From Priestia megaterium (GTDB taxonomy: Bacteria; Bacillota; Bacilli; Bacillales; Bacillaceae_H), in assembly GCF_023824195.1 (NCBI RefSeq), contig NZ_CP085442.1, forward strand, positions 3,510,001 through 3,574,000: 64,000 nucleotides of DNA. The letters run 5' to 3'. Below the pieces are notes generated by a model, which saw only the letters and a list, made by a program, of their open reading frames with translations, made no database searches and was not told the DNA's origin. How positions within the stretch are numbered: the first letter of the stretch is position 1; each line of letters begins with the position of its first letter. The position numbers and the translations under genes are program-made. Shown in pieces: positions 3,729 to 19,248 of this stretch.

Positions 3729-4358
3729 CTATCTTACATATAATCCATATACAATCATAATGGCCGCATCCGCTAACACATGGCTGATGATCGCCCCTTC
3801 AATGCCATATCGCTCTTTTATATACGCCCACATCATACCTGCTGAAAAGACGCCTGCAACTGAGATCCAATTAAACGGAAAAACAAAAACAGGGAGGATG
3901 ATGAATACGTGATAAAGCGTATAAAAGCTTGATGTAACAATGCTTGAAGCAAGTACAGAAACATGCTTTTTTACTTTATTTTGCACATACACCCGCCAAT
4001 ACATTTCTTCTAAAACAGGATTAATGAAAATCAAAATGACGGCCAAAATGGTAACTTTCCATCCGCTAAATCCCCATATTTGCAAAACCGCTTGCATATC
4101 TTCTGCATGAAAGATTTTACCAGAAAAAAGCATACTACTTCCAATTATAGCAGCGACACATAGAACTCCGCTGAGAGTTCCCACATACAGAGATTTTTTT
4201 GTAAGCGCTACCTTTAAGTTAATTTTATTATTCGCATATAAAATCATAAACATCCAGCCGTAAAAGCAAACAAATGTTACCAACACATTTTGGATAAGCC
4301 ACAAACCGAAAAAAACAAAGATTGTTGGCATGAACAGCAAAAACAAAAATTTTATCAT
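3729..4358 (-). CDS. CPBP-family intramembrane metalloprotease
   Basis: 209 residues, about six or seven TM segments. The CPBP (Abi, CAAX protease-like) motifs are visible in order: EEMYWR (EExxxR, near residue 138), a histidine in FYTLYHVF (near 168) and SHVLAD (HxxxD, near 197). Family members are membrane-embedded glutamic or metalloproteases, some tied to bacteriocin self-immunity; the substrate here is unknown. The gene stands alone, preceded by AAGGTG. Confidence 0.85.
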   Translation of the reverse strand: MIKFLFLLFMPTIFVFFGLWLIQNVLVTFVCFYGWMFMILYANNKINLKVALTKKSLYVGTLSGVLCVAAIIGSSMLFSGKIFHAEDMQAVLQIWGFSGWKVTILAVILIFINPVLEEMYWRVYVQNKVKKHVSVLASSIVTSSFYTLYHVFIILPVFVFPFNWISVAGVFSAGMMWAYIKERYGIEGAIISHVLADAAIMIVYGLYVR

Positions 4359-4398
4359 GTTTATGGCGCACCTTCTTTAAAAGCGGCTTTTCTTTTAC

Positions 4399-4440
4399 TT
4401 AGTAAACCTTTCGTATTCAAAAGGTTTACTATCTTTTATC
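4399..4440. terminator. hairpin between the DnaD-like gene and the CPBP protease gene
   Basis: Perfect 11-bp stem (AGTAAACCTTT with its complement, 4401-4430). It sits downstream of the minus-strand gene ending at 4463. The T-rich run is better on the plus side, so direction is uncertain. Confidence 0.5.
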
Positions 4441-4462
4441 TTATAAAAGTCCAGTGGGATTT

Positions 4463-5392
4463 TCAATTATTTTTTAATTCCCGCTCCAGCTCACGAAGAC
4501 TTTCAGCAAGCTTTTTCTTTTCTTCTTCAAAGTGAACATCGTCTTTAAAAGCAGGAGCTGAAGGCTCTGTCTCTTCATTTTCTCTTAGCCAATCCGGCGT
4601 CAATTCCTTGCGAATGACACGCTTTTTATTAGCGTAGGAAAGCGGCTTTTCAGTCTGCTGATTTGCAAGCGTACGCTGTGACGTTAAATAATGCTTATGA
4701 AAAAGATGCTGTTTAATATAGGCAAATGCTCGAATGGTATCGCCGCTGTACTTAGGTGCGTAGTGATCAAATGCTTCATGCAGTCCAGCTAGCGCCTCTT
4801 CTACAGGTATTTCGCTTTTTGCGACTTCGTACATATGCTTCAAGTCACTCGCTGAAGGATACACTCCTCGGTTTCTTCTAGCAATAAAAGCGGCTTCTAA
4901 CGTTTGTACATAAGCGTCATGCGCGGCTTCTTCTCTTTTTATTTGATTTGTATTTTCTGCTGTAGTCTCTGTTAATGAAGCCTTCACTGTGACCGGCTCC
5001 GCTGCTTCAATTTGACTATTCCCTTCTGTCAAATTGACATCTTCGAGCTCTTCAAACTCATCGCTTGGCATAAGCTTCTCTAATTTTGCGTAATCAATCC
5101 GGTACCAAACGGTGTTGTTAAATTTAGAGCGGTTGTACTTTCCTTTTATAATCAACCCTTCTTTTTCAAGCTTTGAAATGATGCGTTGAATCGTTGAAAG
5201 CGACCAAAACGGAAACTGCTGCAGCCACTGCTGATTTGTATTATAAACCCACGTATATCCGTCCTGCACATTTACGCTTTTTTCAAGCCAGTAGTGAAGC
5301 TGCTGAAGAAACAGTGCTCCGTTCACTCCTACTTTAACTGCAAGCGCCGGCAGTACAATTAACGGCTGATCTTTTAATAATAATTTACTCAT
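4463..5392 (-). CDS. replication-initiator-like (DnaD-related) winged-helix protein
   Basis: 309 residues. The first ~110 residues (KDQPLIVLPALAVKVGVNGALFLQQLHYWL ... WSLSTIQRIISKLEKEGLI) form a winged-helix domain of the sort seen in phage and mobile-element replication initiators. The middle has a helical DnaD-like stretch, and the C-terminus is acidic and coiled-coil rich (FEEEKKKLAESLRELERELKNN). The start MSKLLLKDQ follows AAAGGAG; a 55-codon N-terminal extension runs into the divergent gene's promoter and is rejected. No integrase, capsid or plasmid genes are nearby, so it is a stand-alone chromosomal gene here. A replication role is inferred. Confidence 0.6.
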   Translation of the reverse strand: MSKLLLKDQPLIVLPALAVKVGVNGALFLQQLHYWLEKSVNVQDGYTWVYNTNQQWLQQFPFWSLSTIQRIISKLEKEGLIIKGKYNRSKFNNTVWYRIDYAKLEKLMPSDEFEELEDVNLTEGNSQIEAAEPVTVKASLTETTAENTNQIKREEAAHDAYVQTLEAAFIARRNRGVYPSASDLKHMYEVAKSEIPVEEALAGLHEAFDHYAPKYSGDTIRAFAYIKQHLFHKHYLTSQRTLANQQTEKPLSYANKKRVIRKELTPDWLRENEETEPSAPAFKDDVHFEEEKKKLAESLRELERELKNN

Positions 5393-15850: not shown

Positions 15851-18151
15851 TTATGATTGAACGTTTTGTAATAAATTTTGTCTTGTTTGTTTTGCTGAAG
15901 CAACCATCACTTTTAAAGCTTCAACCGTCTCGCTGATTCCTCTTGTTTTAAGGCCGCAGTCAGGATTAATCCAAAATAATGCAGGATCAAGTACCTGCAG
16001 AGCGCGGTCAATGTTTCGCTGAAGCTCTTCAAGCTTCGGTACGCGCGGGCTGTGGATATCATACACGCCAAGCCCGATTCCTTGATTGTACGTATGTTTT
16101 TCAAACGCATAAATTAATTCACCGTGGCTTTTAGACGTTTCAATGGAAATCACGTCCGCATCAAGCGCTTTAATCGCATCAATAATCTCTTCGAATTCTG
16201 AATAGCACATATGCGTGTGAATTTGCGTCTCGTTTTGTACCGATACCGTCGCTAGTTTAAATGCATACACCGCAGCATTTAAGTAGCTGTCCCAGTTTTC
16301 TCGTTTTAACGGCAATCCTTCACGCAGCGCCGGTTCATCTACTTGAATCATCGAGATGCCCTGACTTTCAAGTGCTTCTACTTCTTTTCTAAGAGCAAGC
16401 GCGATTTGATTTGCGACGTCGTAGCGCGGGATATCATCACGCACAAACGACCAGTTTAAAATCGTAATCGGACCCGTCAGCATTCCTTTAACCGGCTTAT
16501 TTGTTAGAGACTGTGCGTAGACCGTTTCTTTTATCGTCATCGCCTGCTCGTACGATACATCTCCGTAAATAAGCGGCGGCTTCACGCAGCGAGAACCGTA
16601 AGATTGCACCCAGCCAAACTTCGTAAACTGAAAGCCTCCTAATTTTTCACCGAAGTATTCAACCATATCCGTACGCTCAAACTCTCCGTGCACAAGGACA
16701 TCTAAGTCGATTTCTTCTTGAATTTTAATCCATTTTTTTATTTCATCGTTAATGTACGCTTCATACGCTTCGTCTGTTAGTTCTCCTTTACGCCACTTTA
16801 GACGCTCTTTTCGCACTTCTTTTGTTTGCGGAAAGCTTCCAATTGTTGTGGTTGGAAGAAGCGGCAGTTGAAAAGCTTCTTGTTGAATGCGCTGACGTAC
16901 GTCAAACGGCGCTTGTCGCTCTGCTTTATAGCTGTGTAGCTGCTTCAGCGCTTCCTGCACGTCCTGATGATTTCGAAAAGATGATCCATTTAATGCTTGA
17001 ATCGCCTGTTTGCTTACGCTTATTTCTTCTTCTATTGTTTCTTTTCCTTTCTGCACTGCTTTTGTTAAAAGCGTAATTTCCTTCAGCTTTTCATCTGCAA
17101 AAGAGAGGGCATTTTTTAACACTGGCTCAATGGTTTCTTCATTTTTCACTGTGACAGGAACATGTAATAAACTTGATGAAGGCTGCAGGATCAAACGGTC
17201 TTTTGATACGGCTTCTTCAATTTCACTAAGCGTTAAAAGCTGTTCGTCCAAATTTTCACGCCAAATGTTCCGTCCGTCAATAATTCCTGCTGCCAGCACT
17301 TTATCACGTGGAAAACCATATTTATTAAGCGCAGTGAGATTTTCTCCGCGGTCATGCACAAAGTCTAAACCAATTCCTTCAACAGGAAGAGAAACAACTT
17401 CTTTGTAATGATCAACGCTGTCAAAATACGATTGTAAAATAATTTTTATATTCGGTACTGCTTCCTTCAAAGCTTGATAGACTTCTTTGTACAGCACCAG
17501 GTCTTCTTTTGATAGCGTTGTAGCTAAAACCGGCTCATCTACCTGTACCCACTCGACGCCTTCTGCCTGCAGCTCCGCTAAGATAATTGCATAAAGAGGA
17601 ACAAACTGTTCAACTACTCTTTTAAACTCACTTTCTTTATATCCTTTTGACAGCTTCACAAATGTTACTGGACCTAAAATCACGGGCTTGCCTTCAATAT
17701 TCAGCTTCTGTTTTGCTTCTTTGTAAAACTGAAGCGGGCGATTTTCTACAAGAGACGGCGTACCTTGGTCAAGCTCTGGTACGATGTAGTGATAATTTGT
17801 GTTAAACCATTTTGTCATCGTAGAGGCTACCGCACCTTTTGTTCCTCGGGCGATGTCAAAATACGTTTCAAGCGATACCGGTCCTCCGTCATAATCAAAG
17901 CGCTTTGGCACCAAACCAAACATAGCCGCTGTATCTAACACGTGGTCGTATAAACTGAAATCGCCGACTGGAATTAATTCAATTCCTGCGTCACGCTGTT
18001 TTTTCAGATGCCCAAGACGAAGAGCCTCAATTTCCTGCAGAAAGATATCTTTCTCTAGCTTTCCTGCCCAAAACTGCTCAAGCGCTTTTTTCCATTCTCG
18101 TTTTTCACCAATTCTTGGATAACCTAAGTTTGAACTTTTTACACTGCTCAT
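15851..18151 (-). CDS. metE: cobalamin-independent methionine synthase MetE
   Basis: 766 residues, full length. It transfers the methyl group of 5-methyltetrahydropteroyl-triglutamate to homocysteine, the last step of methionine synthesis. The N-terminal half starts [23 protein letters not shown]. The C-terminal catalytic half begins near 430 ([16 protein letters not shown]) and holds the zinc ligands His and Cys in THMCYSEF and Cys in [10 protein letters not shown]. The start ATG 18151 has GGGAGTGG at 7 nt; a GTG three codons upstream overlaps that site. Transcription begins about 560 nt upstream and passes a SAM and then a cobalamin riboswitch, so it should be on only when both are low. Confidence 0.97.
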
Positions 18152-18190
18152 TTTTTCCACTCCCTGTCGTTTCTTTTTTTTCGCTAAACT

Positions 18191-18223
18191 AAAAAATCTC
18201 TCTTTTCGAAATGAAAAGAGAGA
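18191..18223 (-). terminator. expression-platform terminator of the cobalamin riboswitch
   Basis: 11-bp stem TCTCTCTTTTC / GAAAAGAGAGA followed by TTTTTT, 40 nt before the metE start. An AGAGAG run in the transcript between aptamer and hairpin could pair with the CTCTCT arm as antiterminator. Confidence 0.8.
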
Positions 18224-18317
18224 TGATACGCATACTTAACTAGAGTTGAGATAGCCTGTTTTTCTCAACACGTATTCCTCACTCCTCTCTATATCCCGTA
18301 GAGCTTAAGTGCATACA

Positions 18318-18477
18318 ACAGGCAGGTCTCCTGACTTAGGTTCATCGCTTCCTATCCCTTCCCATTTCAGAATGAAACAGTGGTTAATAAGTTGCTCTCC
18401 ATTACAGTGGCGGGACCGCGCCGGCTTTTCACCGGTCTTCCCTTTTAAGCTGGTCACATTCGTTACACAGCACCTGA
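18318..18477 (-). promoter_or_regulatory. cobalamin (B12) riboswitch aptamer in the metE leader
   Basis: Read on the minus strand it carries the cobalamin-riboswitch landmarks in order: CAGGTGCTGTG, AAAAGGGAA, GGTGAAAAGCC, GGTCCCGCCACTGTAATGG, and AAGTCAGGAGACCTGCC at the 3' end. With ligand bound, the terminator at 18191-18223 should form and switch metE off, letting the cell use a B12-dependent methionine synthase instead. Confidence 0.93.
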
Positions 18478-18523
18478 TGCATTTTTATAAAATTGTTCAT
18501 TCAAAACATATTCACATAAAATA

Positions 18524-18553
18524 AAAAGCCTCTCTATCACGAATAGAGAGGCA
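18524..18553 (-). terminator. expression-platform terminator of the SAM riboswitch
   Basis: GCCTCTCTAT / ATAGAGAGGC stem followed by TTTTTAT on the minus strand. The 3' strand of aptamer helix P1 (AAGAGAGG) can pair with CCTCTCT of the terminator's left arm, a clear antiterminator. Confidence 0.88.
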
Positions 18554-18570
18554 TAGTATCTATGAAATCC

Positions 18571-18682
18571 TCTCTTATTTTTCAAAGCTGTACGCTTTGC
18601 AGGATGTAGCACCTTTTCAACAAGAATGTTAAATGGTTGCCGGGCTTCACAGGGCCAGTCCCTCCGCCTCTCTCAATAAGAG
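18571..18682 (-). promoter_or_regulatory. SAM riboswitch (S-box) aptamer in the metE leader
   Basis: The minus strand reads CTCTTAT, then GAGAGGCGGAGGGACTGGCC and GAAGCCCGGCAACC, the invariant S-box core, followed by AAGGTGCTACATCCTGC and the closing ATAAGAG. P1 arms are 18676-18682 and 18571-18577. It is the promoter-proximal of two riboswitches ahead of metE. Confidence 0.95.
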
Positions 18683-18716
18683 TTTTAATTGTTTATAATA
18701 TTTTGAATGTAGAGTC

Positions 18717-18745
18717 ATCTTAACACCTTACATTTACGTTGTCAA
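18717..18745 (-). promoter_or_regulatory. metE promoter
   Basis: TTGACA (18740-18745), 17-nt spacer, TAAGAT (18717-18722); transcription should begin near 18710, about 28 nt before the S-box. Confidence 0.75.
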
Positions 18746-18762
18746 AAAAAATTTCAAAAAAA

Positions 18763-19014
18763 TCAGTTTTCAGGAGGTGCTGACGCTAATTTTTGCCTTA
18801 ACAATTTGTAATCATCTTTTCGATGTGTTTCAATTAAATCTTTTGCTCCTTGGTGATATCCTGACGAATAAATATACTCTACCGCTGTTTCGATAAGCTT
18901 TCTTTTTTCTTCGGCACACTCCCGGTCCATTAAGGGGAACAGTCTACCTAAAAGGTCATTTAAATCTTCCTTGATAAAACGATCAAGTCCTTCTTGCATC
19001 TTTTCGTTTGCCAT
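18763..19014 (-). CDS. small soluble protein of unknown function
   Basis: 83 residues, charged and helical (MQEGLDRFIKEDLNDLLGRLFPLMDRECAEEKRKLIETAVEYIYSSGYHQGAKDLIE). No TM segment, no known motif. GGAGGAG lies 6 nt before the ATG. It ends just ahead of the metE promoter with no obvious terminator between, so read-through into the riboswitch leader is possible. Confidence 0.7.
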   Translation of the reverse strand: MANEKMQEGLDRFIKEDLNDLLGRLFPLMDRECAEEKRKLIETAVEYIYSSGYHQGAKDLIETHRKDDYKLLRQKLASAPPEN

Positions 19015-19248
19015 GATTGCTCCTCCATTTGCTGTGTATGTTCTAAGCCTCTATAAACAGGCATTTCACTGTAAATTTTAAGATAAAGTTAAGTCATTAA
19101 ACAGTATATCAAGTGAATGTTTTTCTTCAATTACATATGTAATACAAATATATGACAAATATAGAGAATATATCATCATTCATTATCTATTATAACGTTT
19201 GACTGAGCCTTCTGCTACAAGGTTTCTTTAAACATTATGCATAATCTT

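Follow-up and report, generated by a model that had tools for sequence, protein, structure and literature searches.

A metE leader of Priestia carries a SAM-I aptamer followed by a cobalamin aptamer

Two complete riboswitch aptamers of different classes precede a single methionine synthase gene in the window analyzed here, a 64-kb stretch of Priestia DNA. The question raised by this locus is whether they act as two independent switches, whether only one of them matters in the cell, or whether they fold into a joint structure, and also how far a leader of this kind is already known from published work.

Layout of the leader and its two expression platforms

In the whole window only two Rfam matches reached the gathering score, one SAM and one Cobalamin, both on the minus strand. 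The SAM-I (S-box) aptamer lies at 18572-18682 and is full length (RF00162, 93.4 bits with a cut-off of 44.4, E 4.1e-21, model positions 1-108 of 108), as is the cobalamin aptamer at 18304-18492 (RF00174, 113.4 bits with a cut-off of 31.5, E 1.2e-27, model positions 1-189 of 189), and 79 bases separate them. The original prediction had placed a full aptamer of each class at these positions and proposed a covariance-model search, in which both models scored far above threshold. The next gene 3′ of the leader is metE, encoding the cobalamin-independent methionine synthase, on the minus strand as predicted (15851-18151; TIGR01371, 1097 bits with a cut-off of 929.95). We would place its start at the ATG at 18151, compared with the GTG at 18160 in the mechanical list of open reading frames. 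The same 5.98-Mb genome encodes a full-length metH at C1:1276668-1280081 (TIGR02082, 1278.5 bits with a cut-off of 1010.85).

Upstream of the S-box, a consensus scan found a sigma-A-type promoter, TTGACA-17-TAAGAT with an extended TG before the -10 (18745-18717, minus strand, 10 of 12 matches), and the open reading frame upstream of it ends at 18763. The consensus promoter claimed at the outset is thus present, although by count promoter-like sites in 18100-19100 are not above chance (3, compared with 2.2 ± 1.3 in shuffles). Terminator-like sites in the same region show a modest excess (3, compared with 0.9 ± 1.0), the third being on the other strand. On the minus strand between the two aptamers the scan found no consensus promoter, and both switches would be carried on one transcript. 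The layout is that of a SAM-I/AdoCbl tandem: two switches, each followed by a terminator of its own as had been predicted, and then metE. The boundaries originally given for the leader (18191-18745) and for its terminators (18524-18553 and 18191-18223) were correct within a base or two.

The S-box terminator with its U-run occupies 18523-18552 (minus strand), with a stem of 11 pairs (18552-18528) followed by TTTTT. An antiterminator pairing with CCTCTCT had been described as readable, and it can be located precisely on the minus strand: its 5′ arm, AGAGAGG (18575-18569), overlaps the 3′ strand of P1 (the aptamer ends at 18572), and its 3′ arm, CCTCTCT (18551-18545), is part of the 5′ arm of the terminator. 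The terminator and the antiterminator are therefore mutually exclusive, and the antiterminator takes the 3′ strand of P1, as expected of a SAM-I switch.

The platform of the cobalamin switch is as legible, including an antiterminator and a kissing loop that the original prediction had missed. On the minus strand, L5 of the aptamer reads UCCCG (18415-18411; U68-G72 in the numbering of PMC10653944) and is followed by the P13 hairpin (18280-18311), a split stem of CACU/AGUG and CUCUA/UAGAG with an AAG internal loop (177-179 in that numbering), whose loop L13 reads CGGGA (18298-18294; C185-A189). As judged by complementarity, L5 and L13 could kiss over five bases. The 3′ side of P13 contains the antiterminator 5′ arm, GAGAGGAG (18289-18282), and the 3′ arm, CTCTTTTC (18220-18213), is part of the 5′ arm of the terminator, which with its U-run spans 18191-18224 (stem 18224-18196, 12 pairs, then TTTTT). 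The pairing of these two arms came from a fold of the platform lacking the terminator 3′ arm, and it was found prior to any comparison with the study of the P. megaterium switch, in which the same kind of antiterminator pairing was proposed and tested (PMC10653944). A CCGGTG...CCGG loop had also been considered as L5 and was ruled out; the kissing bases of the published switch are UCCCG (PMC10653944), and the window fits UCCCG.

All 13 of the bases numbered in that study (68-72, 177-179, and 185-189, spread over 122 positions) match the window when position k is read at 18483-k (PMC10653944), and none of the other offsets (300 tried) gave nine or more of the 13 matches. With a single offset matching, the cobalamin half of the window leader is either the switch published from P. 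megaterium or one very closely related to it.

Proposed action of the two switches, and the alternatives

We are confident, with little reservation, that this metE leader, from a Priestia species near P. megaterium and P. aryabhattai, is made of two transcriptional OFF switches that act independently, one after the other. Binding of SAM to the first aptamer would keep P1 closed and free the first terminator, so that transcription would stop at about 18523; when SAM is short, the 3′ strand of P1 would instead form the antiterminator, and the polymerase would pass on to the cobalamin aptamer. There, bound cobalamin would have L5 (UCCCG) kiss L13 (CGGGA), P13 would be held, and the second terminator would form at about 18191, whereas without cobalamin the 3′ side of P13 would pair with the terminator 5′ arm and transcription would run into metE. 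MetE would accordingly be made only under a shortage of SAM combined with too little B12 for MetH. That cobalamin represses the leader, and how the B12 switch works, were established by others in P. megaterium (PMC10653944); how the leader responds to SAM, and that its two inputs combine as a NOR gate in Priestia, we infer from the anatomy of the leader, for which an OFF/OFF (NOR) two-input device is a well-supported reading. The original prediction, expression of metE only under scarcity of both SAM and B12, is likewise the natural reading of two complete switches in a genome that also encodes metH, and as a piece of RNA logic it is textbook: the B12-independent methionine synthase would be made only when both SAM and B12 are short.

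The antiterminators are the weakest part of this case when each is taken singly. For the window alone, 38 of 500 dinucleotide shuffles produced an equally good S-box antiterminator helix, and 249 of 500 an equally good cobalamin one; over five leaders, all of them Priestia, the corresponding counts for shuffles of the 5′ region were 28-47 for the S-box and 213-249 for cobalamin, again of 500. Both helices are matched by shuffles because both consist of purine-on-pyrimidine tracts. Since single-sequence statistics are weak here, support has to come from conservation and from the mutants in print. The latter belong to a dissection, by compensatory mutation, of the cobalamin half of the metE leader in P. 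megaterium: an eight-change mutant restoring all three stems regained regulation, the functional L5-L13 pairs were mapped by mutation to 70-72 with 185-187, and corrinoid-dependent repression of the leader reached 26-fold (PMC10653944).

Conservation of the cobalamin platform was followed in 13 tandem leaders. L5 is TCCCG in all 13, and the P13 hairpin is kept likewise; its inner stem is paired in 60 of the 60 cells with letters, and one of its pairs changes from U-A to C-G in five leaders, with a covariation score reached by 5 of 500 shuffles. L13 varies more: CGGGA is found in six of the 13, CGGAT in three, CGTGG in two, and CGCGG and CGAGG in one each, so that full five-base complementarity to L5 is present in only six, and in the seven others the L5-L13 contact probably involves fewer bases or a bulge. 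The automatic alignment of the cobalamin platform shifts the terminator arms of two leaders (L071 and L076), and the antiterminator was for this reason compared by best ungapped registers rather than by pair counts; in each of the nine leader types an uninterrupted helix of 7-9 pairs, G-U included, was found, with registers that differ between them. The automatic terminator finder had also mistaken the antiterminator of L071 for a terminator and drawn over-long stems in five Priestia leaders; in alignment A2 the terminator ends of the leaders with such faults were set by eye.

A competing reading is that the cobalamin switch alone matters in the cell and the S-box is weakly used, which would in effect leave a one-input B12 switch. 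The Priestia literature has measured corrinoid responses (PMC9600662; PMC10653944), and related MetE genes are preceded by a cobalamin element alone at 17 of the 52 Bacillota loci scanned from the best 80, both of which fit that reading. Even so, we think it very improbable, given that the S-box matches its model over the whole length with a high score (93.4 bits), that its antiterminator is paired in 95.2% of 84 cells and its terminator in 97.6% of 83 cells over 12 distinct leaders from several genera, and that the order of S-box first and cobalamin second is kept in all 13 tandem leaders. The S-box pairing figures should be read alongside three others: 80.8% of antiterminator cells still pair when the partner is slid by two columns, covariation in the antiterminator was not above its own shuffles, with no both-sided change in the 12 leaders, and the terminator has one both-sided change, in one sequence, with a score reached by 37 of 500 shuffles.

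Still less probable, in our view, is that the two aptamers interact through a shared expression platform or cooperative folding. The minimum-energy fold of the whole leader does pair parts of both halves, although at 566 bases such predictions are unreliable. Against this reading, a separate terminator follows each aptamer, and the distance between the aptamers ranges from 58 to 307 bases among the 13 leaders, a spread difficult to reconcile with a joint structure, which was set aside because of this spacing. The reading of chance matches or decayed, functionless riboswitches, which has the weakness of the single antiterminator helices in its favor and nothing else, is hardly credible and already refuted as far as sequence goes, with E-values of 1.2e-27 and 4.1e-21, a whole leader 95-97% identical in four relatives, and the conserved P13 and L5 all opposing it. 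Two independent OFF switches in series thus remain our preferred reading.

Published tandems and the distribution of the leader

Sudarsan et al. are said to have described the metE tandem of B. clausii as a NOR gate in 2006. In this tandem the two switches control termination independently (PMC2258182), and it is included in a survey that counts 11 tandems, eight SAM-I/AdoCbl and three AdoCbl/SAM-I, read as NOR gates on metE (PMC9481103). The metE locus of P. megaterium, with its SAM-Cbl tandem, has been placed in B. subtilis, the growth of which was then suppressed by benzimidazolyl cobamides to differing extents (PMC9600662). metE is also among the genes of P. megaterium DSM319 with cobalamin riboswitches (PMC8390425), an AdoCbl switch is listed for metE of Bacillus methanolicus (PMC4342826), and the term metE is absent from the main text of PMC12452182. 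The proposal that the leader is a second natural case, from a lineage other than that of B. clausii, is therefore not supported, given the 11 surveyed tandems (PMC9481103) and the published P. megaterium leader (PMC9600662; PMC10653944). The tandem arrangement is already known, and its cobalamin half is already dissected experimentally in the same genus; the observation is correct and precise, and as a finding it is an ordinary one, a known regulatory leader.

The P. megaterium tandem is the closest known system, with the same genus, gene, and order as the window (PMC9600662; PMC10653944). The bases of L5, L13, and the P13 internal loop stand at the same numbering and spacing, the logic of P13, antiterminator, and terminator is found in the window as well, and no difference was seen at the 13 comparable bases, to which the comparison is limited (PMC10653944). 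The B. (Shouchella) clausii tandem resembles the window in having SAM-I first and AdoCbl second, independent control of termination, and metE downstream (PMC9481103; PMC2258182); in the Shouchella relative L059, MetE is 64% identical to that of the window and the aptamers are 307 bases apart, compared with 79. The AdoCbl/SAM-I tandems combine the same two classes with the same NOR logic in reversed order (PMC9481103, Table 2), an order seen in none of the 13 tandem leaders collected here.

With the same leader already dissected in P. megaterium, the main contribution of the window is to confirm it and to extend its distribution, to 13 leaders from several genera, with SAM always first and metH in every genome. 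Of nine other genomes of the genus that were searched, four have the leader itself at 95-97% identity, and two more of the 61 genomes have it at 77-80%; one further genome, G021, gave a weak match (query 61-426, 68%) that covers part of each aptamer. metE is also found on NZ_JYOO01000004.1 of Priestia aryabhattai B8W22, with a MetE 94% identical to that of the window. A scan of contigs for MetE gave at least 595 stretches, of which the best 80 loci were kept, and the Rfam riboswitch scan covered 52 of these 80, all Bacillota, with L103-L113, L115-L121, and L123-L132 left out for titles outside Bacillota. Among the 52 were seven tandem leaders, 17 with cobalamin only, two with SAM only, one T-box, and 25 with none, the last including L088, where a cobalamin element lies on the other strand only; upstream sequence was short at L082 (112 bases), L075 (546), and L067 (593). 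The seven tandems, still from the best 80, belong to Ectobacillus panaciterrae, Gottfriedia luciferensis, Bacillus sp. J37, Shouchella shacheensis, Halobacillus massiliensis, Thalassobacillus devorans, and P. aryabhattai. In E. panaciterrae (L053) metE is followed, on its own strand, by a further cobalamin element (126.4 bits) at 4330-4519 (+).

A search of 18 genomes, that of the window among them, found metE over the cut-off in 13, seven with the tandem (the window genome, four other Priestia, G011, and G046) and six with a cobalamin element only. With P. aryabhattai counted once and the window included, there are at least 13 distinct tandem leaders. A full metH was present in all 18 genomes, including the seven with the tandem, and in 33 of 50 named Bacillota genomes from the best 80 loci. 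By leader, these 50 divide into 6/6 for tandem, 14/16 for cobalamin only, 0/2 for SAM only, 0/1 for T-box, and 13/25 for none, with one more metH split over contig ends. Thus 20 of the 22 named genomes with a cobalamin element before metE had a full metH, compared with 13 of the 28 without (Fisher p 0.001, or 0.002 with the split metH counted); outside Paenibacillaceae the figures were 12 of 14 and 1 of 14 (p 7e-5), relatedness being uncorrected in all three tests. This association is the expectation for a B12 switch on a B12-independent enzyme.

Two further observations can be set beside these counts. Thirteen of the 25 metE loci with no SAM, cobalamin, or T-box match upstream have a full metH, and 12 of the 13 are Paenibacillaceae (1.5 kb scanned upstream, or 112 bases at L082). 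In Bacillus pumilus GM3FR (G076:C14:9070-9374, genome of L087), a cobalamin element precedes metE and no full metH was found; two short metH-matching pieces, situated close to an N-terminal metH homologue, give the impression of a decayed metH.

The window genome contains nine cobalamin elements over the cut-off, and eight cobalamin riboswitches are reported for DSM319 (PMC8390425). The ninth is at C1:2095518-2095650, and an element before an open reading frame that by eye resembles an ABC-type substrate-binding protein (L007) may be the extra one relative to DSM319. Two tandem cobalamin aptamers (123.4 and 104 bits) lie at G000:C1:2712911-2713387 (-; L003/L008), upstream of a 235-aa open reading frame resembling, by eye, the precorrin methyltransferase of a cob operon. 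On a 172-kb contig (G000:C2:89533-89633 and C2:89745-89987, both +; L016/L183), an S-box stands just before a 389-aa frame that weakly matches the C-terminal half only of MetE.

Possible exchange of metE together with its leader

Within Priestia, the two leader classes are found on different metE genes. Other Priestia leaders with cobalamin only (L171, L172, L173) resemble the window in having a cobalamin aptamer before metE in genomes with metH, and differ in having no S-box match and a MetE 52-56% identical to that of the window. In the Priestia genomes G002, G004, and G009, which have the cobalamin-only leader, MetH is 92-94% identical to that of the window and MetE only 52-56%, while in the more distant G011, which has the tandem leader, the values are 80% for MetH and 79% for MetE; G005 and G006 gave no metE match. 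From such divergence of MetE alongside similar MetH, it seems that metE was replaced within the genus and brought its class of leader along; by the same identities the tandem-leader and B12-only-leader metE genes of Priestia are not orthologues. G011 points to the tandem type as the older in this family. The same picture of MetE and MetH would follow if an old paralogue had been lost.

A quick tree of 65 MetE rows (63 different) requires two changes of the tandem label, compared with a shuffled mean of 12.8, and places Halobacillus and Thalassobacillus apart from the other tandem carriers. Whether metE and its leader form one exchangeable unit among Bacillales, the gate moving with the enzyme instead of being assembled or eroded in place, is to our mind evenly poised. 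Among the neighbors of metE in the window, an 83-aa open reading frame, an acetate transporter, and an acetyltransferase also adjoin metE in all four near Priestia genomes, and a phosphodiesterase does so in three of the four; none of these four neighbors was found at other loci (25 tested in all, with flanks of only about 1.5 kb). A limited literature search found no published account of metE/leader exchange, which is not proof of absence.

On an Anoxybacillus amylolyticus plasmid (NZ_CP015440.1, 10451-14456, L193; 61% of the query), a metE-like stretch seems to be interrupted by an annotated IS4 family transposase, for which reason it was left out of the comparisons; the match starts in the cobalamin part of the leader. 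In the S. shacheensis leader, the 307 bases between the aptamers (L059, 889-1195) contain two similar units, each longer than 100 bases, with the same beginning, GTTGTCTAGCTC, and the same ending, CCCGCCTGCGCTTTTC, and it seems that a small repeat element was inserted twice between the two riboswitches of one leader.
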